Of a stretch of 64,000 nt of DNA, positions 1 to 64,000 are shown piece by piece. The notes under the pieces were generated by a model. It was not told the origin of the DNA. It searched no databases and saw only the letters and a program-made list of their open reading frames with translations. The stretch's first letter is position 1. The number at the start of each line of letters is the position of its first letter. Origin of the DNA: Cryobacterium sp. Y82. GTDB lineage: Bacteria; Actinomycetota; Actinomycetes; Actinomycetales; Microbacteriaceae. The DNA lies in the NCBI RefSeq assembly GCF_002929495.1, contig NZ_PJJJ01000036.1, forward strand, positions 254,504 to 318,503. The letters are read 5' to 3'. The translations under genes and the position numbers were made by a program.

Positions 1-1213
1 TTTGCGCTGCGTACCCACGTCGCCCGAGTTCTGGTGGGCGTCTTTCACGCCGCTCCGCGCCGAGAACACGCTGGGAATCATGCGGTACGTCGAGCCGTTG
101 CCGATTCCAGTGGCGACGAAGATCAGCAGGAAGCAGCCGAGAAATGCCCAGAAGTTGCCGAGTGGAAGCACCGAGACGACCGCGAGGGCTCCGACTGCCA
201 TGACGCCGAAGGCGGCGACGGTGACGGATGCCCCGCCAAAGCGGTCGGCTAGGCGTCCGCCGGCCGGGCGGGCCAGCGACCCGACGAGCGCGCCGATGAA
301 GGCGAGGGAGAGCGAGGCCGACGCCACCTGGAAAGTGGAGTACACCGGGAACTGGTCGGCGATGAGCTTGGGGAACACGCTCGCGAAGCCGATGAAAGAG
401 CCGAAGGTACCGATGTAGAGCACGGCGAGAATCCAGAAGTGCGGTTCTTTCACCGCGGCGATCGATCCGGCGAAGTCGGCCTTAGTGTTGGTGAGGTTGC
501 CCATGTACATCCAGGCACCCCACATGGCAACCAGGATGAAAGGGATCCAGAACCAACCGGCGAAGCTAATGTTCAAGGTTCGCACGGCGCCGAGGGTGAT
601 CACGATCGGCACGATGAGCTGGGCCATGGAAGCGCCGAGGTTGCCACCGGCGGCGTTCAGGCCGAGCGCATAACCCTTCTGGCCCTGCGGGTAGAAGTAG
701 GTGATGTTCGACATCGAGCTGGCGAAGTTGCAACCCCCGAAGCCGGCGAGAGCCGCGACGAACAGCATGACGCCGAACGGGGTGTCGGGGTTGCCGACGC
801 AGAAGCCGAGGGCGATCGACGGGATCAGCAGCAGTCCGGCCGAGATGATGGTCCAGTTGCGGCCACCGAATTTGGGCACCATGAAGGTGTAGGAAAAGCG
901 CAGGGTGGCGCCGACGAGGCTCGGCATGGAGATGAGCCAGAACACCTCGGTGGTGGAGAAGGAAGGAGAAGCCTGCCGCCGGCAGCGACACGACAACGAT
1001 GCTCCACAGCTGCCAGATGATGAAGCCGAGGAACTCGGCGAAGATCGACCATTTCAGGTTGCGGGAGGCGATGACTTTGCCGCCCTGCTCCCACTGTTTC
1101 TTATTCTCGGGGTTCCAATTGTCGATCCACCGACCGGGACGGTGTACCAGCACCGCGTCGTCGATCGTGGATGCGGCGTGGCCGAATGCTGATCCAACTG
1201 TGCTGGATGTCAT
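1..1213 (-). pseudogene. narK: NarK-type nitrate/nitrite MFS transporter, frameshifted and cut by window edge
   Basis: Inner-membrane major facilitator for nitrate uptake or nitrite export. The ATG at 1213 opens a frame giving an N-terminus typical of actinobacterial NarK (WNPENKKQWEQGG near residues 33-45, then FLGFIIWQLWSIVV). At about residue 84 (GFSF) this frame goes wrong. The family sequence continues in another frame from 957 leftward to base 1 (STTEVFWLISMPSLVGATLR, FGGRNWT, NITYFYPQGQKGYALGLNAAGG). The break falls on a tandem GAAGGAAG at 958-965. A 4-base duplication there would explain the shift exactly. The ribosome site AAGGGG precedes the ATG. The C-terminus lies outside the window. 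It is either a recent pseudogene, a slippage-switched gene or a sequencing error; the sequence alone cannot decide. Confidence 0.85.
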
Positions 1214-1334
1214 TGAAGTCCCCTTCGGGATTGGAATGAAATGGCGGGCAACGGTCTGCAGGGAGCCGGGCGGCCTTCCTGCTCCGACGTTAGCCAGCGC
1301 GTGTTTCCGGCAACGTTGGTACCCGTTACCTTTC

Positions 1335-1349
1335 GATCACCAGATGATC
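1335..1349. promoter_or_regulatory. GATCA-N5-TGATC inverted repeat upstream of narK
   Basis: Five-base arms around a five-base spacer, about 125 bases upstream of the narK start and 135 upstream of the RNase H gene. The shape resembles binding sites of Crp/Fnr-family regulators, which often control narK, but the match is loose and short. Tentative operator only. Confidence 0.25.
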
Positions 1350-1483
1350 ACACGCCGTTCGGGGGTTGATGGGGCGCTGTTACACGACGGACACAATCGG
1401 CCCTGAGGCCCGACAGTACGGGTAGCGGATGCGGGGAGTGGCAGACTGGTAGGCCCGCGCATCCGCTGTTTGAAAGGCCCCAC

Positions 1484-2290
1484 ATGACAATCACCGCCGC
1501 TGCCGACGGTTCTGCCCTCGGGAACCCAGGCCCAGCCGGCTGGGCCTGGTACGTCGACGACTCCTGCTGGGCCGCTGGTGGCTGGAAGCACGCCACCAAC
1601 AACCAGGGCGAGTTGAAGGCCGTGCTCGAGCTATTTCGTGCCACCGCGCACATTGACGACGATCTGCTCGTGCTGTGCGATAGCCAGTACGTGATCAACT
1701 CGGTGACCAAGTGGATGAAGGGCTGGAAGGCCAAGGGCTGGCGCAAGGGCGACGGCAAACCGGTGATGAATCTCGACCTGCTCAAGGAGATCGACGAGGC
1801 CATCGCCGGGCGTCGGTACCGATTTGAATGGGTGAAGGGGCACGTTGGGCATCCGCTCAACGAGGCGGCCGACGAGCGCGCGCGCGGCGCGGCAGAGGCT
1901 TTCCAGCGTGGCCGGTCGGCACCGGCCGGGCCCGGTTTTACCGCGCTGCAGTCAAAGACCCAACCGGTAGGACAGGCGCGCGCTGCAGCCTCCGGCGGGC
2001 TGCGCACCTTGGGCTCGTCGACTGCGCCGGCCCTGACCACTGGCCGAACCACGGAGCGGGCGGTTGCCTTTGCGCACGACGAACTGTTCTCGCTCGACGA
2101 TATCGGCGAGGATGCCGGCGAGGATCACCGCGACCGTATCGATCCGCACGGCCCCGACGCCATGCGCAGCGGGGGCGAAATGCACCGGGTGACGCTGTCA
2201 CTCAGCGCCGAGGAGCATGGGCGTCTGGTGTCGCGGTCAGCGGACCGCGGCGAGTCCATCGAGGAGTATCTGCGCGGCCTGATCATCTAG
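1484..2290 (+). CDS. rnhA: Ribonuclease HI with long C-terminal extension
   Basis: Cleaves the RNA strand of RNA-DNA hybrids. Residues 1-135 form a complete RNase HI domain with all four carboxylates visible: D8 (ADGSALGNPG), E43 (NNQGELKAV), D66 (LCDSQYVI) and D130 (NEAADERAR). The loop GHVGHP (120-124) contains the assisting histidine. Residues 136-268 are an extension not found in the roughly 155-residue classical enzyme. It is Ala/Gly/Arg-rich at first and ends in a compact segment (MHRVTLSLSAEEHGRLVSRS, then IEEYLRGLII) that looks like a ribbon-helix-helix or small dimerisation motif. The start follows GAAAGGCCCCAC. It stands alone between divergent narK and a convergent exonuclease-like gene. 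Enzyme call is firm; the tail function is unknown. Confidence 0.9.
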   Translation: MTITAAADGSALGNPGPAGWAWYVDDSCWAAGGWKHATNNQGELKAVLELFRATAHIDDDLLVLCDSQYVINSVTKWMKGWKAKGWRKGDGKPVMNLDLLKEIDEAIAGRRYRFEWVKGHVGHPLNEAADERARGAAEAFQRGRSAPAGPGFTALQSKTQPVGQARAAASGGLRTLGSSTAPALTTGRTTERAVAFAHDELFSLDDIGEDAGEDHRDRIDPHGPDAMRSGGEMHRVTLSLSAEEHGRLVSRSADRGESIEEYLRGLII

Positions 2291-3712: not shown

Positions 3713-5173
3713 CTAGTTGACGGGCGCGGCTTTCCGTGCCGAGTTCTTCGGCGGCAGCAGGGTGTCGGCTTCCTCCAGCGACATTCCGTTGGTTTCAGGC
3801 ACCTTGCTCAGCACGAACCAGAATGACAGCCCGGCGAACAGGGCGTACATGCCGTAGGTGATAGGCAGGGAGGCGTCCGCCATCGGCGGAAAGCTGACCG
3901 TGATCAAGAAGTTCGCGATCCATTGGGCGGCTGCAGCCAGCCCGAGGGCCTTGGCGCGAATCGAGTTGGGGAACATCTCGCCGAGGAGCACCCATACCAC
4001 TGGGCCCCAGGAAGCTCCGAATGAGATCACAAACAGGTTTGCGGCAACAAGCGCGATCGGAGCCCAGGCACCCGGCAGGCTGAGCGCGCCGTCGACCGTG
4101 ACCGACTGGCTGAACGCCACCGCCATCGTTGCCAGCGACACCGTCATGCCGATGGAGCCGGCCAACAGGATCGGTCGTCGGCCGATCCGGTCGACCAGAG
4201 CGATCGCGACCAGGGTGACCAGGATATTGGTGACCGAGGTGATCACCGAGATGGTCAGCGAGTTGGATTCCTCGAAGCCGACCGCGCTCCAGAGGGTGGT
4301 CGAATAATAGAAGATCACGTTGATGCCGACGAACTGCTGGAACACCGACAGGATGATGCCAACCCAGACGATCGGCTTGAGACCGAAGGCACTGCCACGC
4401 AGAGACCCCGATTTCTGTGAACGCGCATCGACCTCGATCGAGCGACGCATGTCGCGGATCTCCCGGTCGACGTCGCCGCTCGGCCAGAGCCGGGTGAACA
4501 CGGCGCGGGCATCCGCTTCTTTGTCTTTGAGAATAAGGAAACGCGGGGATTCCGGAAGGACGAACGCGATGCCGCCGTAAACAACGGCCGGCACGGCACC
4601 GACGAGGAACATCCAGCGCCAGGCTTCCAGCCCGAACCAGAACTCGCCGGCTGCTCCGCCCGCACTCTCGGCGAACATGGCGTCGGAAAGCAGCGCGGTG
4701 AAGATGCCGAGCGTGATCGCAAGCTGTTGAAGGGAGCCTAGTCGTCCGCGCATCTGCCGCGGCGAAATTTCGGCGATATAAGCCGGTGCGACAACGGATG
4801 CGAGGCCGATACCGAGCCCGCCGATGATTCGCCAGATGATCAGGTCGACCACGCCGAAAGCGAAACCTGAACCGATCGAGCTGACCAGAAAGACCACGCC
4901 GCCGACCACCATCATGGGGATGCGTCCGTAGCGGTCGGCGAAGCGGCCCCCGAAGAACGCACCGGCCGCAGCGCCGAGCAGCGCGCAGGCCACCGCGAAA
5001 CCGGTGAGGGTGGCGTTCAGCCCGAATTCCTGCTGCACAGCGTTGACGGCCCCATTGATGACCGAGGAGTCGAACCCGAAGAGGAATCCGCCGAGGGCAC
5101 CAGCGACGGCCAGCGCGATGACTTTTCTGTTCGATCCGGGTGCCAGGTCAGTCGACTTCGTGGACGCGTTCAT
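3713..5173 (-). CDS. MFS sugar porter (SP family)
   Basis: 486-residue, 12-segment inner-membrane proton-coupled sugar importer of the GlcP/XylE/GalP type. Family marks are present in order: GGFLFGFDSSVINGA in helix 1, GRFADRYGRIP after helix 2 (about 76-86), RxxGGLGIGLASVVAPAYIAE, PESPRFL before the central loop, QQFVGINVIFYYS in helix 7, DRIGRRP between helices 8 and 9, and PETNG after helix 12. The substrate cannot be read from the sequence; glucose, xylose or galactose are the usual ones. It is monocistronic, with no sugar kinase or regulator beside it. Confidence 0.92.
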   Translation of the reverse strand: MNASTKSTDLAPGSNRKVIALAVAGALGGFLFGFDSSVINGAVNAVQQEFGLNATLTGFAVACALLGAAAGAFFGGRFADRYGRIPMMVVGGVVFLVSSIGSGFAFGVVDLIIWRIIGGLGIGLASVVAPAYIAEISPRQMRGRLGSLQQLAITLGIFTALLSDAMFAESAGGAAGEFWFGLEAWRWMFLVGAVPAVVYGGIAFVLPESPRFLILKDKEADARAVFTRLWPSGDVDREIRDMRRSIEVDARSQKSGSLRGSAFGLKPIVWVGIILSVFQQFVGINVIFYYSTTLWSAVGFEESNSLTISVITSVTNILVTLVAIALVDRIGRRPILLAGSIGMTVSLATMAVAFSQSVTVDGALSLPGAWAPIALVAANLFVISFGASWGPVVWVLLGEMFPNSIRAKALGLAAAAQWIANFLITVSFPPMADASLPITYGMYALFAGLSFWFVLSKVPETNGMSLEEADTLLPPKNSARKAAPVN

Positions 5174-5460
5174 CGTGCTGGGTATCGATTGCTCACCTGA
5201 CTAGCCTACGTCGGGTGTCAGCGGATGCCGCGCCGAGCAGCGAAATAAACGGGTGTGCGTCAGCCCGAACCGGCGTGCAACCCGCGCAACACCAGCATTC
5301 GCGGCAGCGGTCAGGGAATTGATCATCCTTTCGGGCGTCGCGAACGGCGCTCTCCCAGACCTGGCCAGGTGGGGCCTCCGCTCGTCGTCCGCGACAACGA
5401 CCCGCGGGCACAGCAGCGGCTTACGGCGGGTATCCAGCGAGGCGGGGCTAGCATCCGAAG
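5174..5460. other. Intergenic region between sugar porter and MpaB-like oxygenase
   Basis: 287 bases between divergent genes. It carries one copy of the AGCGGATGC nonamer at 5220. I see no convincing protein, RNA structure, strong palindrome or consensus promoter. Short open frames here lack ribosome sites and family likeness. Confidence 0.5.
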
Positions 5461-7744: not shown

Positions 7745-7795
7745 TCCTCCATCCAACCACCCGCGCAGGGGCAGCGGATGCCGCGCGGCGTGCTT

Positions 7796-8693: not shown

Positions 8694-10835
8694 ATGACCG
8701 ACACCCGCGCATCCGCTCTGGCCATTCTGCGCACCCTCGTGGGGCGAGCCGACGCCTCCTGGCATGACGGACAGTTTGAGGCCATCGAAACTCTGGTCGA
8801 CCACCGTCGCCGCGCGCTCGTGGTGCAGCGCACCGGGTGGGGCAAATCGGCGGTGTACTTTGTGGCGACCCTGCTGTTGCGACGCCAGGGCGCGGGCCCG
8901 ACCATCCTGGTCTCGCCGCTGCTCGCCCTGATGCGTGACCAGGTCGCCGCTGCGGCCCGCGCCGGGGTGCGGGCGGTGTCGATCAATTCCTCGAACGCGC
9001 ACGAGTGGAGCGACGTGCTTCAGAAGCTCGACGCCGACGAGGTCGATGTTTTGCTGGTGTCGCCCGAACGACTGAACAATCCGTCTTTTCGCGATGAGCA
9101 GCTGCCCGCCCTGATCGCTCGGGTCGGTTTGCTCGTGGTCGATGAGGCGCACTGCATCTCCGACTGGGGTCACGATTTTCGCCCGGACTACCGCCGCCTG
9201 CGCGACCTGATCGCCCAGATGCCGACCGGCGTGCCCGTGCTCGCCACCACGGCCACCGCCAATAGCCGCGTCGTGCAAGACGTCGCGGAGCAGGTTGGCA
9301 TGGTCGCCACCGGCTTCGATGGCGCTACCGCCGGAACCGCTGAAGTCGTCACCATTCGCGGCCCGCTCGCTCGCTCATCGCTGCGGCTGGGTGTGCTGCG
9401 CCTGCCCGATTCGCGCGCCCGGCTGGCCTGGCTGCTCAGCCACCTCGCCGAACTGCCGGGCAGCGGCATCATCTACACCCTCACCGTGGCGGCCGCCGAG
9501 GACACCGCCAGGCTGCTGCGCGAGGCGGGTCACGCGGTGCGCGCCTACACCGGCCAGACCGACACGGCCGAACGCGAACAATCCGAGGAGTTACTCAAGA
9601 CCAACCAGGTCAAAGCACTCATCGCCACGAGCGCTTTGGGAATGGGATTCGACAAACCAGACCTCGGCTTCGTGTTGCATCTGGGCGCGCCGTCCTCCCC
9701 CGTTGCCTACTACCAGCAGGTCGGTCGTGCCGGCCGTGCCACCGCTTCGGCCGACGTATTGCTGCTGCCCGGCGCCGAAGATGAGGCCATCTGGCACTAT
9801 TTCGCCACCGCCTCGATGCCCAATCAGGCCAAGGCCCTCGCCGTGGTCGGCGCACTCGAAGCCGCCGGTACTCCCCTGTCCACACCGGCGCTCGAAGCCA
9901 GGGTCGACCTGAAGCGCACTCCGCTTGAGCTGCTGCTCAAGGTGCTCGACGTCGACGGCGCGGTGCACCGGGTCAAGGGCGGCTGGCAGTCGACCGGGCA
10001 GCCCTGGGTCTACGACGGGGAGCGCTACGAACGCATAGCGGCCGCCCGGCTCGGTGAGCAGCAGGCCATGCTCGAATTCGAAGGCACCACCGGCTGCCGC
10101 ATGGAATTTCTGCAGCGCGCCCTCGACGATGAGACTGCGGTAGCATGCGGGCGTTGTGATAATTGCCGGGGCGCCTGGTATTCGAGTGCTGTGGCCGAGG
10201 GAGCCGTGGCGACGGCCACGCAATCGCTCGATCGCGTCGGCGTCGCCATCGATGTGCGTGCGCAGTGGCCGACCGGCATGAGCAGCCTCGGCGTCGCGGC
10301 CACCGGCAAGATTGCGCTCGGCGAACGGTCCGAGCCCGGCCGCGCGCTGGCCCGCCTGACCGACCTCGGCTGGGGTGGTCCGCTGCGTGACCTGTTCGAC
10401 CCCCGGGCAGCGGATGCCCCCGCCCCACCGGCCATTCTGGCCGCCTGCGTGCGCGTGCTCGCCGAGTGGGGGTGGGCCGAGCGACCGGCAGCCATCGTCT
10501 CGATGCCGACGCGGCGGCATCCACTTCTCATTGATTCGGTGGCACGGTCGTTGGCCGACGTCGGTCGGTTGCCGCTGCTCGGCGCCCTGGACTGGGCGAA
10601 CGGAGGCCCCACCGGGGAGCCGGGCGGCAACAGCGCTTATCGGCTATCCAGCGTGTGGGACCGCTTCACTGTTGGCGCCGAGCTGAGTGAGGCGCTCGCT
10701 GCGTTCACCGGCCGCCCCATTCTACTGATCGACGACCTCGCCGACAGCCGGTGGACCCTGACCGTGGCTGCGCGCGTGCTGCGACAGTACGGCGTCTTGG
10801 CGGTACTGCCATTCGCCCTGGCCCTGCGCTCGTAG
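8694..10835 (+). CDS. recQ: RecQ-family ATP-dependent DNA helicase with C-terminal PRTase-like domain
   Basis: 713 residues. Superfamily 2 3'-5' helicase motifs run in order: motif I QRTGWGKS (45-52, with GWGKS instead of the usual GxGKS), SPLLALMRDQV, motif II DEAHCISDWGHDFRPDYRRL (151-170), TTATAN, and YYQQVGRAGRA (motif VI). The RecQ-Ct zinc site is present (CRMEFLQRAL, then CGRCDNC). The last about 200 residues do not look like an HRDC domain. They end in a phosphoribosyltransferase-like PRPP loop (PILLIDDLADSRWTLTVAAR) in which the usual TG(x)T is SRWT. Works in recombination and repair of gapped or stalled DNA. GAAGG lies immediately before the ATG. Confidence 0.92.
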   Translation: MTDTRASALAILRTLVGRADASWHDGQFEAIETLVDHRRRALVVQRTGWGKSAVYFVATLLLRRQGAGPTILVSPLLALMRDQVAAAARAGVRAVSINSSNAHEWSDVLQKLDADEVDVLLVSPERLNNPSFRDEQLPALIARVGLLVVDEAHCISDWGHDFRPDYRRLRDLIAQMPTGVPVLATTATANSRVVQDVAEQVGMVATGFDGATAGTAEVVTIRGPLARSSLRLGVLRLPDSRARLAWLLSHLAELPGSGIIYTLTVAAAEDTARLLREAGHAVRAYTGQTDTAEREQSEELLKTNQVKALIATSALGMGFDKPDLGFVLHLGAPSSPVAYYQQVGRAGRATASADVLLLPGAEDEAIWHYFATASMPNQAKALAVVGALEAAGTPLSTPALEARVDLKRTPLELLLKVLDVDGAVHRVKGGWQSTGQPWVYDGERYERIAAARLGEQQAMLEFEGTTGCRMEFLQRALDDETAVACGRCDNCRGAWYSSAVAEGAVATATQSLDRVGVAIDVRAQWPTGMSSLGVAATGKIALGERSEPGRALARLTDLGWGGPLRDLFDPRAADAPAPPAILAACVRVLAEWGWAERPAAIVSMPTRRHPLLIDSVARSLADVGRLPLLGALDWANGGPTGEPGGNSAYRLSSVWDRFTVGAELSEALAAFTGRPILLIDDLADSRWTLTVAARVLRQYGVLAVLPFALALRS

Positions 10836-12450: not shown

Positions 12451-13297
12451 TCCCCTCGCTACAAACGGCCAAACGGATGCTGACCCCCTGCTTCGCGTGC
12501 GAGGCCTGCAGAAGAGTTTCGGCAGCAACAGTGTGCTGGAGTCGGTGGACCTTACCGTGGGCCGCGGCCGGGTGCTGGCCCTGATCGGGCCGTCCGGCTC
12601 CGGTAAGACCACCATTTTGCGTTGCCTGAACGGGCTGGAGTTGCCCGACGGGGGCACCATCGAGGTCGCCGCTTCAGTGATTGCTGACCGGGTTGGTAGC
12701 GGCTCCGCTAACGGCCGGGGCGCTGGATCATCGGCGTCGATGGCCATTGACTTCGCCGCGAAGACCTCGCCGAAACAGCTCGGCGCCCTGCGCGACCGGT
12801 CGGCAATGGTTTTTCAGCACTACAACCTGTTTCCGCATAAGACCGTGCTGCAGAACGTGATTGAAGGACCGGTCATCGTGCAACGCCGCCCGCTCGCTGA
12901 GGTCACGGCCGAGGCGCTGGTCCTGCTAGCGCGCGTCGGCCTGACAGACAAACAGGGCAGCTTTCCGTTCGAACTCTCCGGCGGCCAGCAGCAGCGCGTC
13001 GGCATTGTGCGAGCCCTCGCGCTGCGCCCGCAGCTGCTCTTGTTCGACGAGCCGACCTCGGCCCTCGACCCGGAGCTCGTCGGCGATGTACTGCGCCTGA
13101 TCAAAGAGCTGGCCGACGAAGGCTGGAGCATGGTCATCGTCACACATGAACTCGAGTTCGCCCGCGAGGTCGCGCACGAGATCGCCTTCGTGGACGGTGG
13201 CATCATCGTCGAGCATGGCGAGCCGAAACAGTTGTTGCAGCACCCGCAGCAGGAACGTACCCGCCAGTTTCTGCACCGGCTGCTGCACCCGTTCTAG
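12437..13297 (+). CDS. Polar amino acid ABC transporter ATP-binding protein
   Basis: 286 residues. Walker A GPSGSGKT, Q-loop FQHYNLFPHKTV, signature LSGGQQQR, Walker B LLLFDEPTSALDPE and H-loop VTHE are intact. Between Walker A and the Q-loop there is a longer than usual insertion (around VGSGSANGRGAGSSASM). ATG 12437 lies 14 bases inside the permease gene. An upstream TTG at 12416 is possible but unlikely. It completes the importer operon that begins at 10966. Confidence 0.93.
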   Translation: MSPADPLATNGQTDADPLLRVRGLQKSFGSNSVLESVDLTVGRGRVLALIGPSGSGKTTILRCLNGLELPDGGTIEVAASVIADRVGSGSANGRGAGSSASMAIDFAAKTSPKQLGALRDRSAMVFQHYNLFPHKTVLQNVIEGPVIVQRRPLAEVTAEALVLLARVGLTDKQGSFPFELSGGQQQRVGIVRALALRPQLLLFDEPTSALDPELVGDVLRLIKELADEGWSMVIVTHELEFAREVAHEIAFVDGGIIVEHGEPKQLLQHPQQERTRQFLHRLLHPF

Positions 13298-14995: not shown

Positions 14996-17900
14996 TCATT
15001 CGATGGGCAGGTCAGCCTCAATTCGGCTGTATCCCTGATCGGTGACCGAGATGCGCAGCGTCGCCGGAATCTGCTCTTTCATTGAGTCGACGTGGCTGAT
15101 CAGTCCGATCGTGCGTCCGCCGGCGCGAAGGGTGTCAAGGGTGCTCATGGCAGTTTCGAGGGTCTCGCTGTCGAGCGAGCCGAAGCCCTCGTCGACAAAC
15201 AGGGTATCGAGCGTGATACCACCCGCTTGCCCGGTCACCACCTCGGCTAGTCCGAGCGCGAGTGCAAGAGAAGCCAGGAATGTCTCGCCACCGGACAGCG
15301 AATGCGTTGGCCGGGCGCGACCGGTGAACTCATCACGGATCGCCAACCCCAGACCAGACCGCGCGCCACCCTTCACGCGCGAGTCATCGTGTTCGAGGGT
15401 GTAGCGTCCGCTTGTCATCGTGCGCAGCCTCAGGTTTGCTGCCCCCACGATTTCTTCCAGCTGGGCGGCCAGGACATAGGTCTCCAGCCGCATCCGTTTC
15501 GTGTTCGGTTCGTCGCCCTGCATTACGTCAGCCAGCTGACGCACCTGAAAATGCTCGTCTGTCAGGCCAGCGGATGCCGCAAATCGCGTCGTAACTTCCC
15601 GCACGATCGCTTGCAGTTGGCCGGCACGTTCGGCGAGTGAGCTGTGCGAGCTCACAGCGTCATCGCGCGCGGTGCTCGCGGCATCGAAGGCTCGCAGGGA
15701 CGGCTCGAGATCGATCGGAGCTGACGGAAGATCGACCAGCTCAGGATCGGCCACAGCCGCCAGGGCCGCCGCACGTTGGTCGTCATAGGACCGCACGACG
15801 TTGGCCAGTTGGATGACCTGGCCCTCGTCAAGCCTCGCCCCGACAGCCGTTCCCTCATCGTCGAAGGCTTCCTCCGCCAGCCGGTTCGCGAGGTCGAGAA
15901 TGGCCGCATCGCGGGCGTCGGCGCGTTGCTGGCTGAATACGAGGGCGTCATCGAGTGCGCGCGCGCAGTCCAGCTCCTGTTGCAGTGCGCGTACCTGATC
16001 GGTCACGGTACCGCTTCCACCACGCTGCGCGCCCACGCGAGCCATGAGCAGGTCGCGCTGCCCAGACCGCTCACTGTGGATGTCGGCCGCCGTATCGCGT
16101 GCCGCGCGGAGGCCTAACAGTGCGGTCTGGGCAGTGGTCTGGGACTCCCGAAGGTCGGCCTGTTCCTGCCGAAGCCCGCCGATCAGGCGGGAGGCCGTCT
16201 GCGCAGTAGCCAACCGGGCGCGGGAGGCACAGCACTCGGCTTGCAGCTCACCGACGCTTCGCTGCCCGGCCAGCGCCTGCGCCTGACCGAGACGATTCGT
16301 CAGCGAGGTCGCGGTCTCCTGGGCATCGGCCAGTTCCTGCTGACTGCCCTCCATGTGCTGGCGGGCCGTGCTGAGGTCGGCTGCAGTGACTAGCTCGCCC
16401 TCCGGCGCTGCCGGAGCAGGGTGTTCAATGGCCCCGCACACCGCGCACGGATCACCTTCGACGAGACGGCTGGCTAGTTCAGACGCCTGCCCAGCGAACC
16501 GGCGGGTCACGAGCGCCTCGTAGTCGACGGCGGCCGCCGCGTTATCACGACTTCGATCCAGTAATTGCGTGCCAGCCCCCGCCAACTCCCTCAGCAACGC
16601 CACCACGTCTTCGGCGGCCGCGAAGCCGATTTCGGCCCGGCGTACGGCCTCGGCAGCGTCTGACTCCCCGGCTGCGGCGAGCGTCGCCGCCGCGAGTTGC
16701 TCGCCGATGAAATCTATCTGCTGGGGTAGCTCATCGATTCGCTGCTGGGCACGCGCCAGGCCATCGGCGTGACCGACGAGCGCGTCGAACAAGGCCGTGA
16801 TCTCTCGGTTCAGGGCGGGAAGCTGTTTTTCTTCCTCAAGCACCTCCGCGAGCGCTCCAAGCCGCCCCACGAGGGCATCCATGATCGGACGAAGCGCCCG
16901 CTGTGAAGGGCCAGCGCTGTCACTGGCTGCGCCTTCACTGGTACCGCTGTCACTGGCGGCGCTGTCGCCGAAGGGCAACCAAGCGGTCCTGGCCGTGCCT
17001 ACATCGGCCAGGGCTGTCTGCCATTCAGCAGTCGCGGTCCGGCTGCTCCGAATCTGCGGCCAGACCCGTGCCGCACGGGCCGCGCGCAGCAGCGTGCCGC
17101 GTTGTGCCTCGACCTCGAAGTGGCAGCCGTCGAGGGCGGCAAGAGCGGTGTCAGCCAGAACGCGGCGAGCCTGACGTCGCTGGGTCTCCGTTGCCGCGCT
17201 ATGTTTCTCGGTTGCAGTAGACAGCCGAGCGGCCGCACCGGTCGCCTCCGCCGAGGCGACGTCAACGGCACTATTCAGGCCAGCCAGAGCGTCGCTAAAC
17301 CAGCCGAGGTCCGGCGCGACTGGTGCTTCCAAAAGCCGAAGCTGGTGCATGGCAGCGGTGGTCTGTTGTGCGACATCACGCTGCACGTCGGCGAGCCGCT
17401 CGTCGAGTGATTTGCGGCGCAGCACGAGAGCTGTTTCCAGTTGTTCGAATCGTGTGGTCCCGAACAGGCTGCGCAGCACAGCGCGCCGTTCATCGGTTTT
17501 GGCCAGCAGAAAGTATTGGAACCGGTTTTGGGCGAGCAGGATCACCTGAAGAAATTGGTCAGCCTTCAAGGGCAGGATCGCGCTCAGTTCAAGGCCGACG
17601 GCTTGTACCTTGGCCGCAGTTGCCCGCCATTCGGTGCCGTGCAAAATATAAAGCACAGCAGTGGCTGCTGCGGTGGTGGTTCCGGTGCCCTTCTTCTTAG
17701 CTCGCTCATACTCCGGGCTGCGCACCAGACGGTAGTCACGTCCGCGCAGGCTGAAGTCGAGTTCGACAAAGGTGGGATCATCGGGCTCGCAGTAGTCGCT
17801 GCGCAACGGCTGCTTTCCGTCGGGAAACCGCGGCACCTTGTCATACAGAGCGAAACAGATGGCGTCGAGGATACTGGATTTACCGGCGCCGGTTTTGCCG

Positions 17901-29703: not shown

Positions 29704-29919
29704 TCCGACTTTTTGATCCCTCGATCGATACCATCGATCACCAGACGAGGCGGCGCCCCCGGAGCGTCGGGGACGGCACCGTCTCATCTGGTTTAACGCT
29801 GCCCGCCCACCGACGTGCGGACCGAGCACGATGCCTCGTTCAGACCATGGTTACAACGGATGCATAACAAACCGAACGACCGGGAGTTGCCGATCGCACA
29901 ACCGGGGTAGACTGGGCGT
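29704..29919. other. Non-coding stretch with hairpin, upstream of 6C RNA
   Basis: Contains a near-perfect palindrome GATCGAT-ACC-ATCGATC at 29723-29739 (7-base stem), possibly ending the 29464 transcript although no T run follows. At 29887-29892 (TTGCCG) and 29908-29913 (TAGACT) there is a candidate promoter, spacer 15, for the RNA below. No protein frame is convincing. Confidence 0.4.
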
Positions 29920-33272: not shown

Positions 33273-33308
33273 ATGCTGACCTGCCCGGTCACTGGGCCAT
33301 ACTGAGGT

Positions 33309-40467: not shown

Positions 40468-40947
40468 TTAGGGGAGGGCGCTTTCGGCCTGGCACTGTGC
40501 GCAGAGGCCCCAGTAGATGACCTCGGCGGCGCGCACGTCGAAGCCGAGGGCATCCGCTGGGGTGAGGCAGGGCGCGTGACCGACGGCGCAGTCCACGTCG
40601 TGAACGACGCCGCAGTGGGTGCAGACGATGTGGTGGTGATTGTCTCCAACCCGGCGTTCGAACAGCGCGGGTGAGCCGGCCGGTTCAATCTTGCGTACGA
40701 GCCCGGCAGAGGTAAACGACGCCAGCACTCCGTAGACCGCCTGGAGTGAGGTGCCCGGCAGGTCTGCGCGCACCACGCCGAACAGGGCGTCGGCTGTTGA
40801 GTGCGGCCGGTCGGTGAGGGCCCGCAATACGGCCAGACGCGGCGCGGTCACCTTGAGACCAGCCGAGCGGATACCGCCCTCGAGCAACCCGGCGTCGGCT
40901 GCGGCTAGGCGCAGCCCCTCGCCGTCGCTCAGATTGGATATCGTCAT
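40468..40947 (-). CDS. furA: Fur-family repressor (FurA/PerR-like)
   Basis: 159 residues. The N-terminal winged helix ([39 protein letters not shown]) is followed by the metal-binding dimer domain ([20 protein letters not shown]). Two C-x2-C pairs (CTHC and CAQC) hold the structural zinc. The partner gene is katA, as in actinobacterial furA-kat operons where the repressor senses peroxide through metal-catalysed His oxidation. The upstream Fur box suggests autoregulation. Confidence 0.92.
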
Positions 40948-46270: not shown

Positions 46271-46849
46271 CTACTTCAGGCTTTTTTGCAGCAGGATCGT
46301 GCCGAGCCAGCGCTCAAACTTAAACCCGACCTTGCCCATGCGGCCGATCTCGTCGAAGCCGAAATCGCGGTGCAGCTTGATCGAGGCATCCGCTCCCTGG
46401 TCGGCGATGACGGCGATGATCTCCTTCAGGCCGGCAGCTTTAGACCGTGTGATCAGCTCGCCAAGCAGCTCGCGGCCGAGACCCTTACCCGTCGACGCCG
46501 CGCCGAGGTAGATCGAGTTCTCTACCGTGAACCGGTAGGCCTTCTTCTGTTTCCATGGGCTGACCAGGGCATAACCGAGAATCTGACCGGCCGGAGAGAC
46601 GGCAACGATGAACGGCATGCCCTGTTTGTTCAGATAGTAGAACTTGTCGCGCCACTCGGCGAGCGTCATGGCATCTTCATCAAAGGTCACGGTGCTGTTG
46701 GCGACGTAGTAGTTGTAAATCTCGCGTATGTGCGGCAGATCCGCTGCTCGAACCTCGCGCATCGTGTATTCGAATGGCGTCTCGGGAGCCACGTCCGGCC
46801 GCAGGTGGCGGGGCAGCCGACGACGAGGCTCGTATTCTTCCTCAAGCAC
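46271..46849 (-). CDS. GNAT-family N-acetyltransferase (phosphinothricin acetyltransferase-like)
   Basis: 192 residues. [20 protein letters not shown]-type opening and [20 protein letters not shown] with the acetyl-CoA loop, then [20 protein letters not shown] and [20 protein letters not shown] match the PAT/Pat-like GNATs. The first 28 residues are an extra charged leader ([18 protein letters not shown]). Acetylates an amino compound. GTG 46849 has AGGGGAG upstream and overlaps ung by 8 bases. Confidence 0.88.
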
Positions 46850-47564
46850 CCGGCACTCCCCTTTCTGATTGGTTCCAGATTACCGGAAGAGCCCACTGCA
46901 CCGGTGCCGCTCCCTGCACGGTGAGCAGCCGGTTGGCGCCACTGAATGGGCGGGAACCGACAAAGCCGCGGCGGGCTGAAAGGGGGCTCGGGTGCGCGGA
47001 TTCAATGACGGGAGTGTCGCCGAGCAACGGCCGAAGCGCGCCGGCATCCTTGCCCCACAAGATCGCGACGAGCGGATGCTGTCGCTCGACGAGCGCACGG
47101 ATCGCCTGGTCGGTCACGCTTTCCCAGCCGCGGCGGCGATGCGATCCGGCCACCCCGGCCCGAACGCTGAGCACCCGGTTGAGCAGCAATACCCCCTGAT
47201 CGGACCACGCCGAGAGGTCGCCATGCTCCGGGCGCTGCAAGCCCAAATCGGCCTCAAGCTCGGTGTAGATGTTGCCAAGGCTCCGCGGCACCGGCCGCAC
47301 GTCGGAGTTGACGGCGAAGGCCAAACCGATCGGATGCCCCGGCGTGGGGTACGGATCCTGGCCGACGATGAGCACCCGCACGGCATCGAACGGTTGCCGA
47401 AACGCGCGCAGCAGGTGCTCGGGCGCGGGTAACACCGTGTGGCCGGCCGCCCGTTCGCTCGTGAGGAAATCACCCACCCGGGCCAGGTCGTCGGCCACGG
47501 GAGCGAGCGCTCTTGCCCAGCCGGGGTCGATCTGCCCGGTCGCCGCGAGCGCATCGAGGTTCAC
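46842..47564 (-). CDS. ung: Uracil-DNA glycosylase, family 1
   Basis: 240 residues. Removes uracil from DNA. Catalytic water-activating motif [16 protein letters not shown] is at about 70, the uracil-recognition strand [10 protein letters not shown] and the leucine-loop [18 protein letters not shown] are intact. Starts at GTG 47564, 7 bases after the S51-type gene end, and overlaps the GNAT gene. It is third in a four-gene leftward operon. Confidence 0.95.
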
Positions 47565-48839: not shown

Positions 48840-48925
48840 CCGTCAATGCTAGCGACGATCCAGGCTGCACAGAGCGGATGCAGCGCGCACAGCCGGCCGC
48901 GCAGCATCCGCTTACGAAAGAACCG

Positions 48926-51008: not shown

Positions 51009-52543
51009 TAGAAGATTCCCTTCGGGGTGGCGAGGGAGGACAGCAGTCCAGGCTTGGCCACGATGGTCAGGCCGCCGAGGTCGGCAGCCCCAAGCTCCGG
51101 TAAGCGCTGAGCCAGGGCGAGGAAGCGTTCGATCTCGAATTCCTCCATCACCGGTGCGGCCAGCGTGCGGAACTTATTGATGTACTCCGCGCGAGCGAAG
51201 GGACGAGCCCCGAGCGGATGCGCGTCGGCGACGGCGATCTCGTCAACCAGGCGGGTTCCATTGGTGAGTTCGATTTCGACGCGACCGCCGAATGCCTTTT
51301 CGGCCGGATCGAGGGAGTGGTAACGACGCGTCCACTCCTTGTCTTCGGTCGTGGTGACGGTATTCCACAGCGCGATGGTATCGGGGCGGCCGGCACGCTC
51401 GGGGCTGTAGGAGTCCACGTGGTTCCAGGTTCCGTCCTGCAGGGCCACCGTGAAGATATACGGAATGGAGTGGTCGAGGGTTTCGCGGCTTGCGGTCGGG
51501 TCGTACTTCTGCGGGTCGTTGGCGCCAGAACCGATTACGTAGTGCGTGTGATGGCTGGTGTGGATGACGATGTTCTTAATCGCGCCGGCCACGAGCAGTT
51601 CGGGGTGCTCGTTGTGCAGCCTGCGGGCGAGGTCGATCCATGCCTGCGCCTGGTACTCGGCCGAGTGCTCCTTGGTGTAACTGTCGAGAATAGCGCGCTT
51701 GATGCTGCCGGCGGCCGGCAGCGAGACGTCATAGGAGCCGTCTGGTCCGTCGAGCAGCCAGGCGATGACACCGTCCTCGCCCTCGTAGATCGGAGTCGGG
51801 CTGGTCTCACCGCGGAGCGCCCGGTCGACCGCTTCGACGGCCATCTTGCCGGCGAAAGCCGGGGCGTGGGCCTTCCAGGAGGAGATTTCGCCCTTCCGCG
51901 ACTGGCGAGTGGCGGTCGTGGTGTGCAGTGCCTGGCCGACGGCCTGAAAGATGATCTCCTTGTCGAGGCCGAGCAGGGTTCCGATACCGGCAGCGACCGA
52001 CGGGCCGAGGTGGGCAACATGGTCAATCTTGTGCGCGTGCAGGCTGATCGATTTCACCAGGTCGATCTGGATCTCATAGCCGGTGGCGATGCCGCGAATC
52101 AGGTCGCCGCCGGTCAGGCCGCGCGACGCTGCGAGGTGCTGGGCAACGGCCGTGATCGGTGGGATATTGTCGCCCGGGTGCGAGTACTCTGCGGCCAGAA
52201 ACGTGTCGTGGTAGTCGAGTTCGCGAACGGCGACGCCGTTGGCCCAGGCGGCCCACTCCGGGGAAACCCGGCGTGCCGGTGCGAGCCCGAACACGCTCGC
52301 GCCGTCGCCACCGTTGGAACGCGGGTGTGCGAGTGCCTGCGAGCGAGCAGCGATCACCGGGCGACGGGTCAGGCTGGCCGCGGCAACGGAGGCGTTGTCG
52401 ATCACGCGGTTGATGACCATCTCGGTCACTTCCCCGGAGACTGCAGCGGGGTCAGCTGCGACCTCGGCGATCTTCCAGGCCAGCTGGTCCTCGCGGGCCA
52501 GATTCTCGTCGCTCTTGTGAACTCGAACGTGGTGAAGCTGCAC
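51008..52543 (-). CDS. prpD: 2-methylcitrate dehydratase (MmgE/PrpD)
   Basis: 511 residues. Dehydrates 2-methylcitrate to 2-methyl-cis-aconitate. PrpD-typical blocks are [60 protein letters not shown] and [15 protein letters not shown]. Start GTG 52543 with AAGGGA upstream. First gene of the operon, 15 bases from the GntR gene. A separate aconitase must hydrate its product and is not in the window. Confidence 0.95.
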
Positions 52544-53359: not shown

Positions 53360-55285
53360 ATGATCGGCGAATCAGGTGGGGGCTACCGGGAGGCTTGGCG
53401 ACGCAGCATTTCGTCACCCGAAGACTTCTGGCTGGAGGCTGCCGCCGGCATCGATTGGATCACGCAGCCGACGAGCGCCCTTGCCCTTGATGGCCCGGCA
53501 ACCGGAAGTTGGTTTCCCGGGGGGACACTCAACACCAGCTACAACGCTCTCGACCGGCACGTTCTGGCCGGCCGCGGCGCGCACACAGCATTGATCTACG
53601 ACTCCGCGATGACCGGCACCCGCGTGCAGCTCAGCTACCTCGACCTGCTCGGTCGGGTCGCTAAATTCGCCGGCGCCCTTCGCGCCAATGGCGTCGGCAC
53701 CGGCGACCGGGTCATCATTTACCTGCCGATGATTCCCGAAGCCGTCGTCGCCATGCTCGCCTGCGCTCGCATCGGAGCGGTGCACTCCGTGGTCTTCGGC
53801 GGTTTCGCCGCGACGGAACTCGCCGTGCGCATTGATGACGCCCGTCCCAGGGTCATCGTCACGGCATCCGGTGGCCTTGAGCCCGGCCGCATCATTGAGT
53901 ACCTGCCGCTCGTAGAGAAGGCCATCGCCCTGAGCCAGGGCTCGGTGCACACGGTCATCGTGCGGGACCGAGAGAGCATTCCTGGCTCAGCCAAGGAGTA
54001 CCACGACGGTTCCACGGATACCGTGTGGCTGGACTGGGCCGACGAGGAGGCCAAGGCCGCGCCGGCCGACCCGGTCGCCTTGCGATCCGAGGATCCGCTG
54101 TACATTCTCTACACCTCAGGCACGACCGGGAAGCCCAAGGGCATCATTCGCGACACCGGCGGCCATGCTGTCGCCCTGAACTGGTCGATGCGCAATGTCT
54201 ACAACGTGGGATATGGCGACGTGTATTGGGCCGCTTCCGATGTTGGCTGGGTGGTCGGGCACTCTTACATCGTCTATGCGCCACTCCTGGCCGGCGCTAC
54301 CACGGTGATCTACGAGGGCAAACCCATCGGGACCCCCGACGCCGGGGCTTTCTGGCGTGTCGTCGACGACTACAAAGTGAAGGTGCTGTTCACGGCGCCC
54401 ACCGCCATTCGAGCCATCCGTCGCGTGGACCCCGACCTGCTGGAGCTGAAGAACCACGACGTGTCCAGCCTGACCAGCCTGTTTCTGGCGGGGGAACGCC
54501 TCGACCCCGAAACCTTTCACTGGGCCAACGACGGGTTGCACTGCCCGGTCGTCGATCACTGGTGGCAGACCGAGACCGGGTGGGCGATCTGCGCCAACCT
54601 GCTTGGTATCGAGGAGTTGCCGACGAAGCCGGGCTCTGCCACCGTTCCGGTGCCCGGGTACGACATCGCCATCCTCGATTCCAAGGGCCGGCCGATCGAG
54701 AAGATCGGTAAGGACGGCAACATCGCCATCCGACTTCCGCTGCCACCAGGCACACTTCTCGGGGTCTGGGGCAGCGAGGAACGCTTCAACAGTTCCTACC
54801 TGTCCGCTTTCCCCGGCTACTACGCCACGGGTGACTCCGGCCATTTCGACACCGACGGCTACCTGTTCGTTATGGGTCGCACCGACGACGTCATCAACGT
54901 TGCCGGGCACCGGCTCTCCACCGGTTCCCTCGAAGAGGTCCTCACACTGCACCCGGCTGTCGCCGAGTGCGCAGTACTCGGCGTGCACGACCCGCTCAAA
55001 GGCCAGCGTGCCGCTGGTTTCGTCACCCTCAAAGCGGGCAGTACTATCGATCACGACGTACTCGCCGCAGAACTTGTCGCCCTCGTTCGGGAGCACGTCG
55101 GGCCGGTCGCAGCCTTTCGCGACGTCACCATACTCGACCGACTGCCCAAAACGCGGTCGGGCAAGATTCTTCGCAAGACCATTCGGCAAATCGTCGATGG
55201 AGAGGAGTATTCCGTCCCGCCCACCATCGAAGACCCCACCGTCCTCGACGATCTGAAACGGGCGCTGTCAGCATCCGTTTCCTAA
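53360..55285 (+). CDS. prpE: Propionyl/acetyl-CoA synthetase
   Basis: 641 residues, acyl-AMP-forming ligase. P-loop YTSGTTGKPKGI, A5 motif WWQTETGW, A8 region TGDSGHFDTDGY and the catalytic, acetylatable Lys in PKTRSGKILRKT are intact. The whole length agrees with PrpE. Activates propionate (and perhaps acetate) before the methylcitrate cycle. Divergent from the regulator and prpDBC, with the uptake genes downstream. Confidence 0.92.
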   Translation: MIGESGGGYREAWRRSISSPEDFWLEAAAGIDWITQPTSALALDGPATGSWFPGGTLNTSYNALDRHVLAGRGAHTALIYDSAMTGTRVQLSYLDLLGRVAKFAGALRANGVGTGDRVIIYLPMIPEAVVAMLACARIGAVHSVVFGGFAATELAVRIDDARPRVIVTASGGLEPGRIIEYLPLVEKAIALSQGSVHTVIVRDRESIPGSAKEYHDGSTDTVWLDWADEEAKAAPADPVALRSEDPLYILYTSGTTGKPKGIIRDTGGHAVALNWSMRNVYNVGYGDVYWAASDVGWVVGHSYIVYAPLLAGATTVIYEGKPIGTPDAGAFWRVVDDYKVKVLFTAPTAIRAIRRVDPDLLELKNHDVSSLTSLFLAGERLDPETFHWANDGLHCPVVDHWWQTETGWAICANLLGIEELPTKPGSATVPVPGYDIAILDSKGRPIEKIGKDGNIAIRLPLPPGTLLGVWGSEERFNSSYLSAFPGYYATGDSGHFDTDGYLFVMGRTDDVINVAGHRLSTGSLEEVLTLHPAVAECAVLGVHDPLKGQRAAGFVTLKAGSTIDHDVLAAELVALVREHVGPVAAFRDVTILDRLPKTRSGKILRKTIRQIVDGEEYSVPPTIEDPTVLDDLKRALSASVS

Positions 55286-61255: not shown

Positions 61256-62458
61256 ATGGAATGGCAATCGTCAGCAGACACGGTCCCGTCGAGCTTCATC
61301 ACTGAAGCCCAGGCGCGCTCGGTGCTTGGCAAGCCTCCGGCTACCGGTGCCTGGCGTGACGGTGACCCGGTCGGCCACCGCCAATTCCTAAACCTCGGCC
61401 CCCTCAGCTTCGAGGCCGGGGGCAGCCTGCCAGCGGTCCGCCTCGCCTATGAAACCTGGGGCACGTTGAGCCAGACCGGCGACAACGCTGTGCTCGTGCT
61501 GCACGCCCTCACCGGCGACAGCCACCTGGCCGGCACCCCCGGTCCAGGCCAGGAAACGGGTGGCTGGTGGGATGGCATCGTCGGACCTGGCCTGGCCATC
61601 GACACCGATCGGTGGTTCGTGGTGGCGCCGAATATGCTCGGCGGCTGCCAGGGCAGCACCGGCCCGGCCTCGCTTGCACCCGACGGGCTGGAGTGGGGCA
61701 TCCGCTTTCCCTATCTGACTATTCGCGACCAGGTGAGCGCACAGCGAGTGTTCAGCGACCGGATCGGTATCGATCGCTGGGCGGCCGTCATCGGCGGTTC
61801 GATGGGCGGCATGCACGCGCTCGAATGGGCGATCGAGACCCCCGACCGGGTTGAACGCCTCATCATTTTGGCCGCGCCCCCAATAACGACCGCAGACCAG
61901 ATCGCGCTCAATTCGGTGCAGATCGAGGCTATTCGCACCGACCCGGCGTTTCGTGCCGGCGACTATTACGACGAAGCTGATGGCGATGGCCCGACGCGCG
62001 GGCTGGCCCTCGCCCGCAGAATGGCCCTGCTCAACTATCGAAGCCCGGCCGAGCTGAACGCTCGTTTCGCGCGGGGCTGGCAGAGCGGCATCAGTCCGCT
62101 CGGCGCCAACGGCCGCTTCGCCGTGGAGTCGTACCTCGACTTTCACGGTAATAAATTCACTCGGCGTTTTGACGCCAACAGCTACATCGTGTTGGTCGAA
62201 GCAATGAACTCCCACGATGTCGGACGCGGACGCGGCGGCGTCGCGGCCGCCCTCGGCCGGGTCAGCGCCCGCTCGGTCGTTGTCGGAATCGACAGCGACC
62301 GGCTCTTTCCGGTCGATGGCCAGCGCACGATCGCTGCGCACCTGACCAACAATATCGATGGACCCACCGCGGTGGTTCTAAAATCCGGCTATGGTCACGA
62401 TGGCTTTCTCATTGAGAATGAGGCAATTGGAGCCCAGATTCAGCGGGTGTTGCACTAA
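61256..62458 (+). CDS. metX: Homoserine O-acetyltransferase
   Basis: 400 residues, alpha/beta-hydrolase fold. Makes O-acetylhomoserine for MetY. Nucleophile elbow GGSMGGMHALEWAIE, GCQGSTGPASL, the conserved NMLGGCQGST and catalytic His in SGYGHDGFLIENE. Standard MetX length. Weak ribosome site at ATG 61256. Confidence 0.96.
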   Translation: MEWQSSADTVPSSFITEAQARSVLGKPPATGAWRDGDPVGHRQFLNLGPLSFEAGGSLPAVRLAYETWGTLSQTGDNAVLVLHALTGDSHLAGTPGPGQETGGWWDGIVGPGLAIDTDRWFVVAPNMLGGCQGSTGPASLAPDGLEWGIRFPYLTIRDQVSAQRVFSDRIGIDRWAAVIGGSMGGMHALEWAIETPDRVERLIILAAPPITTADQIALNSVQIEAIRTDPAFRAGDYYDEADGDGPTRGLALARRMALLNYRSPAELNARFARGWQSGISPLGANGRFAVESYLDFHGNKFTRRFDANSYIVLVEAMNSHDVGRGRGGVAAALGRVSARSVVVGIDSDRLFPVDGQRTIAAHLTNNIDGPTAVVLKSGYGHDGFLIENEAIGAQIQRVLH

Positions 62459-62529
62459 GTCGGAACCACGCGTGCGTCGCCCGGTATGGTGCTGATAGAA
62501 CACGTTCATCTCCAACCGGACAGGCACCC

Positions 62530-63699
62530 ATGCAACGCATCGTCAAGGAGCGCGACCGTCTCCTGCGCAGAGCGGTGCAGGCAGGCGGGCTCGTTGGTTC
62601 GGCAACAACGCTGGCGTGCGTGCTGGTTCCTGGCGGCCTGGAGGCCGACGCACGCCTCGGATGTGTCGTGCTCGTGCTGCTGATGGCCGCTGGCCAATAC
62701 CTGCTCGGAAGCACCGGGGCGCTGCGCTGGGCTGTTCTGACCGTTCTCAGCGGGGAAGCGATCATTCTCATTGTGGGTTTCACGAGCCATCCCGGTGTTC
62801 CGCTGAATTTGATCGAGGAAAGCGTCATCGGCATGGTCTCCACCGCGCCGATGTGCGCTGTCGCTTCGGTGCTGCTCACCAGCCCGCGCCGGTTGTTGTT
62901 GCTCGTGGCATGTTTCGTGCTGACCGTCACCAGCGTGGCCGCGGTGACGGTCGATGCGCCCGACCGCACGGTGCTTCTGGCGCTGACGGTGAGCATGTGG
63001 CTGGCGTTCACCCTCGCCTCCTGGTGGATCGCACAGAGCGTGCCCCGGGTTATGCATCGCATCGCCGCGATCGGCCGCGCCCACCGGGCCGAGCGGCATG
63101 CGAGCGAGCTGGAGGCCCAGCGCCGCCAGGATGCCCGCCTGTTGCACGACACGGTGCTCGCTACGCTGACCCTGCTCGCCCACTCCGGTGTCGGGGTGAG
63201 CCCGATTGCACTGCAAAAACAGGCAGGAGATGACGCGCGGCTGCTGCGCCAGCTGCGCCTCGGCGGGCTGCCGACGCCGCGTCGTTCCGGGGTCTATAGC
63301 CTGGAATCGGCGTCGGTGCTCACTCTCGGCGATACCCTGGACGCGGTGCGCCAGCGCTTTGAGCGCCTGGGGCTCACCGTCAACTGGCACGGCAGCGGCC
63401 AGGTGCAGCTGCACAGTACTGTTCTGGATTCCTTTCTCCTGGCCCTCTCGGAATGCCTCGAAAACGTGCGCCGTCACTCCGGTGTCGACCACGCAGACGT
63501 GACGATAACGGATGACGACAGCACCGTTCGCGCGATGGTCACCGATACCGGGGTCGGCTTCGACCTCGGCCAGGTGGGTTCTGAGCGGCTCGGCGTTGCT
63601 GAATCGGTCATTGCCCGGCTTCGGGATATCGGAGGCAATGCTCGCCTATTCTCGTCGCCAGGGGCCGGAACCACTGTGGTGCTGGAGGTTCCGAAATGA
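62530..63699 (+). CDS. Sensor histidine kinase-like protein
   Basis: 389 residues. Five or six membrane helices (about 15-170), a short coiled linker (HRAERHASELEAQRRQDARL), a reduced dimerisation box with LLHDTVLATLTLLA (His as the possible phosphorylation site) and a HATPase domain with N-box ECLENVRRHSG and G-box DTGVGFDLG. The HisKA_3 motif lacks its usual acidic/basic residues, as in NarL-type partners of unusual kinases. Its stop overlaps the next gene; a response regulator may lie beyond the window. Confidence 0.82.
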   Translation: MQRIVKERDRLLRRAVQAGGLVGSATTLACVLVPGGLEADARLGCVVLVLLMAAGQYLLGSTGALRWAVLTVLSGEAIILIVGFTSHPGVPLNLIEESVIGMVSTAPMCAVASVLLTSPRRLLLLVACFVLTVTSVAAVTVDAPDRTVLLALTVSMWLAFTLASWWIAQSVPRVMHRIAAIGRAHRAERHASELEAQRRQDARLLHDTVLATLTLLAHSGVGVSPIALQKQAGDDARLLRQLRLGGLPTPRRSGVYSLESASVLTLGDTLDAVRQRFERLGLTVNWHGSGQVQLHSTVLDSFLLALSECLENVRRHSGVDHADVTITDDDSTVRAMVTDTGVGFDLGQVGSERLGVAESVIARLRDIGGNARLFSSPGAGTTVVLEVPK

Positions 63700-64000
63700 G
63701 CCAGTTCAACGACACCGCGCCCATTGCAACCCACCCGCGGGCACGCGGTGTCGGTTTGCGTTTGCTCGGCGGGTCCTCCGAACGCAGCTGGCCACCGGCA
63801 TCCGCTGACCGGCGCACCCGAGCTGACCTGCTGCCCCTGCGTTTTCCACGCACCATTCTGCGCGGTGACGGCCGCATCACCGTCTTTCGGTCGGACCAAA
63901 ACGGTTTAGGCGCCCGTCACCTCGGTATCGGCATGACCGTGAGCGGGGCGTTTATCGCCGCGTTCCTGCTCGTGCGGTTGATCATTGGGTGGGACCCCGC
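63696..64000 (+). CDS. Membrane protein, C-terminus outside window
   Basis: 101 residues visible from ATG 63696, which overlaps the kinase stop (ATGA). A proline/arginine-rich cytoplasmic start is followed by a first membrane helix (GIGMTVSGAFIAAFLLVRLI). The frame is open to the edge. Too little is seen to name a family; translational coupling suggests a role with the kinase. Confidence 0.7.
   Translation, partial: MSQFNDTAPIATHPRARGVGLRLLGGSSERSWPPASADRRTRADLLPLRFPRTILRGDGRITVFRSDQNGLGARHLGIGMTVSGAFIAAFLLVRLIIGWDP

Follow-up and report, generated by a model that had tools for sequence, protein, structure and literature searches.

Why should one and the same nine-base word recur so often along an actinobacterial chromosome? 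The question is raised by a stretch of 64,000 nucleotides from Cryobacterium sp. Y82 (contig NZ_PJJJ01000036.1, positions 254,504 to 318,503; the whole stretch is hereafter called the window), the commonest 9-mer of which, AGCGGATGC, or GCATCCGCT when read on the other strand, is present on the plus strand 12 times in the former and 17 times in the latter form, as compared with the 0.9-1.9 copies, both strands together, that Markov models of orders 1-4 lead one to expect. A preliminary description of the window had given 12 and 16 copies and roughly one expected by chance, and had taken the word for a genome-wide signal; recounting left the first number as it was, added one copy to the second, and shifted the positions given by no more than 3 bases (8709 for 8706; 33268 for 33269), while the chance expectation and, as detailed below, the genome-wide nature of the signal were borne out. 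The explanation that we favour, at a probability of roughly 0.6, is that the word, in its full form ARCGGATGC(C), is the Cryobacterium dialect of a self label resembling a DNA uptake sequence (DUS), as might be carried by naturally transformable Microbacteriaceae.

Across the 3,691,252 bases of the genome (37 contigs), AGCGGATGC is found 538 + 535 = 1,073 times, as compared with 47 + 48 = 95 times for a control in which its letters are put in reverse order (the reversed word), and a second form, AACGGATGC, contributes a further 262 + 295 copies vs. 13 + 9 for its own control, bringing the two forms to 1,630 copies, or one per 2.3 kb. In a sample of 458,503 bases (the window and 20 other stretches of the same genome), an order-3 Markov model expects 6.6 copies of AGCGGATGC and 3.8 of AACGGATGC, of which 145 and 69, respectively, are seen; therefore, the true word is A(G/A)CGGATGC(C), i.e., ARCGGATGC, the next base being C in 61% of the copies of this sample. 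Higher expectations for AGCGGATGC in the window are returned by Markov orders 5, 6 and 7 (8.0, 21.7 and 26.2 copies, respectively) because such models are fed with the word's own sub-words.

That base composition, codon usage or some dispersed repeat should by itself produce this excess seems hardly credible, even if one reading frame is common to 73 of the 90 sense copies. Synonymous-codon shuffling within the predicted genes of a sample (100 shuffles; the gene calls, here and for the codon counts, are those of a simple in-house gene finder) yields a mean of 13.9 copies and never more than 21, whereas 176 are observed, so that the count in this sample is well above what codon composition provides. 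Furthermore, sequence information beyond the word is weak and confined mainly to its next two bases, and single-base variants in the GGAT core are close to expectation in the 458.5-kb sample, several of those at word positions 1, 3, 8 and 9 being about 2- to 6-fold above it. The frame shared by the sense copies reads (xxA)GCG-GAT-GCx (Ala-Asp-Ala), and 48 of the 86 antisense copies read GCA-TCC-GCT (Ala-Ser-Ala), just as had been remarked in the preliminary description. A Chi-like recombination site, or a site orienting FtsK or chromosome segregation, might be thought of for a word of such abundance, as both Chi sites and FtsK-orienting polar sequences (KOPS) are abundant short chromosomal words, and AGCGG is the Chi word of Bacillus subtilis; Chi and KOPS, however, are strand-biased relative to replication, and the word studied here has no replication-strand bias. 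On contig C30 (338.5 kb sampled) there are 80 plus-strand and 82 minus-strand copies, the spacing of which is close to random (coefficient of variation of 1.06), and 19 stretches of 20 kb spread along the 3.35-Mb main contig of a relative (G017) hold 61 vs. 80 copies by strand, with no stretch strongly one-sided and no regional switch, a 50:50 model beating, by 13.9 log units, one of 75:25 in which each stretch is free to take either sign (a 12-base version of the word is somewhat one-sided in G017, 36 vs. 55). As the strand tests revealed no orientation bias either with replication or towards the terminus, and as AGCGG is missing from AACGGATGC and from the other dialects described below, this reading was rejected and must be deemed very improbable. 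What is unusual is the orientation of close neighbours: 14 of the 15 pairs of copies lying less than 100 bp apart on three sampled contigs are inverted, and the four inverted pairs that were folded all gave stable hairpins (z from -2.3 to -4.0).

The copies of the two forms within the window are given below by coordinates, strand and form, together with, where a fraction is indicated, the number of aligned Cryobacterium loci in which the copy is kept.

1424..1432, plus strand, AGCGGATGC copy, left arm of the inverted pair 1424-1467 (hairpin -30.2 kcal/mol, z -4.0)
1459..1467, minus strand, AGCGGATGC copy, right arm of the pair 1424-1467 (from count and folding)
1849..1857, minus strand, AGCGGATGC copy
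4509..4517, minus strand, AGCGGATGC copy
4793..4801, plus strand, AACGGATGC copy
5220..5228, plus strand, AGCGGATGC copy
7773..7781, plus strand, AGCGGATGC copy
8709..8717, minus strand, AGCGGATGC copy
10409..10417, plus strand, AGCGGATGC copy
12472..12480, plus strand, AACGGATGC copy
15490..15498, minus strand, AACGGATGC copy
15569..15577, plus strand, AGCGGATGC copy
23407..23415, minus strand, AGCGGATGC copy
24906..24914, plus strand, AACGGATGC copy
26104..26112, minus strand, AACGGATGC copy
28662..28670, minus strand, AGCGGATGC copy
29855..29863, plus strand, AACGGATGC copy
31960..31968, minus strand, AGCGGATGC copy
33268..33276, plus strand, AGCGGATGC copy
35036..35044, minus strand, AGCGGATGC copy
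39715..39723, minus strand, AGCGGATGC copy, kept in 6/12
40550..40558, minus strand, AGCGGATGC copy, kept in 3/12
42324..42332, minus strand, AGCGGATGC copy, kept in 4/11
42485..42493, plus strand, AGCGGATGC copy, kept in 8/11
43151..43159, plus strand, AGCGGATGC copy, kept in 9/9
43888..43896, minus strand, AGCGGATGC copy, kept in 10/12
44360..44368, minus strand, AGCGGATGC copy, kept in 7/13
44839..44847, plus strand, AGCGGATGC copy, kept in 10/13
46386..46394, minus strand, AGCGGATGC copy, kept in 10/13
47071..47079, plus strand, AGCGGATGC copy, kept in 8/13
48873..48881, plus strand, AGCGGATGC copy, left arm of the inverted pair 48873-48912 (hairpin -27.9 kcal/mol, z -3.1), kept in 6/8
48904..48912, minus strand, AGCGGATGC copy, right arm of the pair begun at 48873, kept in 7/9
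51213..51221, plus strand, AGCGGATGC copy, kept in 10/13
55271..55279, minus strand, AACGGATGC copy, kept in 7/11
61698..61706, minus strand, AGCGGATGC copy
63798..63806, minus strand, AGCGGATGC copy

The pair 48873-48912 starts 14 bases beyond the 3' end of a minus-strand gene (48926-50065), which we take to be that of a methylcitrate synthase (prpC-like).

A protein encoded in the window finds its best named relatives in Cryobacterium, at identities of up to 96%, consistent with a Cryobacterium host. For conservation, the window was aligned with 13 of 26 named Cryobacterium loci, the copies in which are non-independent, since all 26 surround one homologous prpC-like gene. In the 10 nearest of these loci the copies are kept at 46-93% of the aligned sites, as compared with 27-51% for random 9-mers drawn from the same alignments, and in three more distant ones 0/11, 3/10 and 2/10 copies are kept vs. 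12-15% of the random 9-mers. For DNA that may have been acquired recently, in which an uptake word would be depleted, there is one case: a recombinase-bearing stretch of 13,788 bases on C30, encoding two serine recombinases, an N6/N4 DNA methylase and a primase-like protein, has no ARCGGATGC where about 6.6 copies would be expected from the mean spacing on the contig, and 4 copies of CGGATGC where about 12 would be; it is a single element, the longest of the four longest site-free gaps of C30 that were inspected.

Beyond this strain, the word contains a core, CGGATGC, that is enriched in most of the Microbacteriaceae genera examined, with dialects following the lineages. All 37 genomes examined of the genus (this strain and 36 relatives) exceed the reversed-word control for AACGGATGC by a factor of 8.9 or more, and the copies of AGCGGATGC within the genus number 198 to 1,486. 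AGCGGATGC is at most 1.2-fold over the control in the 23 genomes from other families, and AACGGATGC, with 2 to 29 copies in six other-family genomes, is clearly above it only in G042 (12 vs. 1). When the first-listed genome of each of 78 Microbacteriaceae genera is taken, the core is at least 2-fold over the control in 57 and at least 3-fold in 50. Where a named genus is represented by at least 40 kb of loci (again non-independent homologues), words of the CGGATGCC type rank near the top of the octamers in Agromyces, Mycetocola, Salinibacterium, Glaciihabitans and Lacisediminihabitans, as does CGGATGCG in Herbiconiux and Agreia, neither being so in the loci of Arthrobacter (with Pseudarthrobacter) and Georgenia. 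The dialects were further judged by 25 synonymous shuffles of the genes in 80-kb samples: G207 carries CGGATCC (79 vs. 16.1 shuffled), its congener G154 carries CGGATGCC (59 vs. 11.2), G138 carries GCAGGATC (34 vs. 4.0) and G053, which belongs to another family, carries GTATGCCG (39 vs. 2.4), the lineages of G207 and G138 being low in CGGATGC, with CGGATCC or GCAGGATC in its place. By the same measure, no word is clearly above background in G106, G158, G146, G071 and G334, nor in the outgroups G037, G038, G040, G041, Arthrobacter and Georgenia; the candidate dialects GCGGATC, CCGGATC and AGGAGGCG (G106, G146, G158), outliers under Markov models, were accordingly dropped, and CGGATGC is in fact depleted in G106 (69 and 90 vs. 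253 and 269 for the control). An order-wide survey with GKATGCCG agrees for the family of G053 (f18), 9 of the 19 genomes of which are at least 4-fold over a control that is, however, lenient, because one genome of family f4 is likewise as high as 5-fold and several others come to about 3-fold. Apart from the matter of dialects, G146 is rich in runs of nine C or nine G (19 vs. 0.5 expected).

If the word is an uptake label, a pilus and a DNA import apparatus should accompany it. In the actinobacterium Micrococcus luteus, transformation requires Flp/Tad pili (PMC6370729). The genome studied here holds three type IV pilus clusters (C16, about 252-311 kb) with PF07963 prepilins in all three; eight proteins of two of them were compared with Pfam and gave a prepilin, a T2SSF protein, three T2SSE ATPases, PilM and a prepilin peptidase, with one unmatched, and the third cluster was judged from its prepilin match and inspection by eye. 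A Tad cluster encodes TadE and two T2SSF proteins (TadB/TadC-like), and genes for ComEA (HHH_3 + SLBB) and ComEC are present as well. Of these components, it is TadE that best follows the word: in 54 of 55 genomes (G053, of another family, being set aside), a TadE match at E<=1e-6 is found in 21 of the 24 genomes with a CGGATGC ratio of at least 3 and in 4 of the 30 below it, or, by genus, in 14/15 vs. 3/12 (p=0.00075). The type IV pilin PF07963 (54 of 70 genomes, five others of the same genus and 11 of other families being set aside) is found in 18 of the 24 enriched and 10 of the 30 other genomes (p=0.003), and TadE fits better because the strongly enriched genera g75, g99 and g32 have no PF07963, which was thus rejected as a marker. 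The near-universal ComEC was rejected likewise, as it does not discriminate. Interruption of comEC gave a mixed picture as a marker of word loss: three genomes of genus g34 with a shortened comEC have CGGATGC ratios of 0.4, 0.7 and 1.3, as compared with 1.3-2.3 in four others, which would fit, but the interrupted comEC of G014, discussed below, contradicts it. As regards comEC itself, that of G014, G006, G025 and G146 is interrupted near a large serine-recombinase-like open reading frame (ORF; Pfam-confirmed in G014 and G146), and late-starting comEC matches are also seen in G002, G011, G033, G244, G347, G169 and G218, with no recombinase in the stretches fetched from the first five of these; judging by such gene arrangements, comEC looks like a recurrent integration target.

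How, then, could the word have come to be where it is? We infer a receptor, belonging to the uptake pilus or to the envelope, which would bind extracellular double-stranded DNA at the non-palindromic word; the word-bearing DNA would then be delivered by Tad/Flp pili (and perhaps also by the encoded type IV pili) to ComEA and ComEC, and recombination of the self DNA thus preferentially imported would copy the word into the chromosome again and again, so that it would build up through transformation on both strands wherever proteins tolerate it. Should the preference of the receptor shift, the word would shift too, and a new dialect would spread. Among the candidates listed in the preliminary description, an uptake motif fits best because of the dialects, the inverted close pairs and the tie to TadE, whereas its Chi-like and segregation motifs fall for want of a strand bias. 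The wider proposition, i.e., an actinobacterial self-recognition in DNA uptake, with receptor dialects throughout Microbacteriaceae and in at least one further family of the order, working via Tad/Flp pili and without an outer membrane, has in our estimation slightly better than an even chance of being right.

Known systems offer both likenesses and differences. In DUS, both orientations are equally common along the chromosome, and close inverted pairs able to form hairpins are frequent. The cyanobacterial HIP1, an octamer, shares with the Cryobacterium word its extreme abundance and its presence in genes and gaps, but is a palindrome, which ARCGGATGC is not. Around the uptake signal sequences (USS) of Pasteurellaceae there are AT-rich flanking segments, which are not seen around the Cryobacterium word, and the words themselves are unrelated. 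The likeness to USS is that of a short self word spread genome-wide (PMC7811141); the two families for which that source describes uptake sequences, Neisseriaceae and Pasteurellaceae, are both Gram-negative. For the DUS of Neisseriaceae, PMC3630211 reports family-wide dialects around a fixed core and some genera without DUS; the likeness comprises hundreds to thousands of copies, a short non-palindromic word, dialects on a fixed core and genera that lack the word, whereas the word, the phylum and the associated pilus (Tad/Flp-like) are different, and there is no intergenic excess. The Neisseria DUS receptor is ComP (PMC6370729). Neither for Microbacteriaceae nor for other Actinobacteria did any of the matches listed for the open-access literature (titles and abstract openings) report an uptake word or an over-represented one; the word itself occurs in that literature in primers.

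Quite a few observations weigh against the uptake reading. ARCGGATGC is missing altogether, over 16-21 kb, from three of the 26 named Cryobacterium loci (other CGGATGC copies being present), and in one of these three 0 of 11 aligned sites are kept; the other three of the longest site-free gaps of C30 hold seemingly ordinary genes. The word does lie both within and between genes, as had been noted in the preliminary description, but without intergenic excess (38 of 214 sites vs. 17.4% of bases); Neisseria DUS are over-represented between genes, a trait that other uptake sequences need not share. Close pairs on C30 are about as numerous as chance would have them (9 vs. 7.6), their orientation alone being unusual. 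Neither ComEC (45/45, 67/68 and 80/80 genomes) nor the ComEA-type domain HHH_3 (55/55) depends on whether the motif is there, and G014, whose comEC is interrupted, has a very high count (750 + 710), among the highest of the genus. The TadE tie weakens to 23/24 vs. 18/30 at E<=1e-3 (by genus 15/15 vs. 9/12, p=0.075), the threshold having been chosen after seeing the data, on 54 genomes picked for extremes and with relatives non-independent. At E<=1e-6, G196, G317 and G344 carry the word without a TadE match and G334, G086 and G114 have the match without the word, to which one may add G207 (TadE match without CGGATGC, though with CGGATCC) and G138 and G063 of the GCAGGATC genus (no TadE match). 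In the strain itself, comEC is broken by one in-frame stop codon, at residue 523 of 821 (C17, about 22682-25117, draft assembly), and the tad cluster is split by the recombinase element (up to 13.8 kb; C30, about 28124-43724), which sits between a small Flp-like ORF adjacent to tadE (no Pfam match) and the two T2SSF genes; owing to these two lesions, the word in this strain may record recent rather than present competence.

Together with these lesions, the strongest objection is that much the same traces would in many respects be left by a chromosomal protein whose DNA-binding specificity drifts. A strand-neutral site of such a protein (a nucleoid organiser or a repair/recombination factor), the recognition of which drifts between lineages and has nothing to do with uptake, would fit the strand symmetry, the conservation and the dialects alike, and is to be taken seriously, even if it seems unlikely to us, as it predicts neither the tie to TadE nor the loss of the word in some genera (G106) without a clear substitute. 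Doubtful to a greater degree is a self mark tied to DNA modification (an orphan methylase, a BREX-like system or another restriction-linked mark) and favoured in the genome, as had also been suggested in the preliminary description: the word is non-palindromic and 7-9 bases long, and GGATG is the FokI site, but restriction targets are usually avoided in genomes, whereas the AG form of the word stands 11-fold and its AA form 25-fold above the reversed control, and no methylase tied to it turned up, although none was specifically searched for, the one seen lying in the word-free element.

Should the uptake reading be right, self-selective transformation would have arisen outside the Gram-negatives too, with dialects in an actinobacterial family, so that the receptor could be sought in cells that have no outer membrane; it would also point to natural transformability, present or recent, in many Microbacteriaceae, and the word would be a tag for DNA delivery into them. 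As a side observation on the 26 Cryobacterium loci near the prpC-like gene, a palindrome, TGTATACA, is strongly over-represented in them (49 vs. 1.0 expected) and is perhaps the operator of a local regulator.

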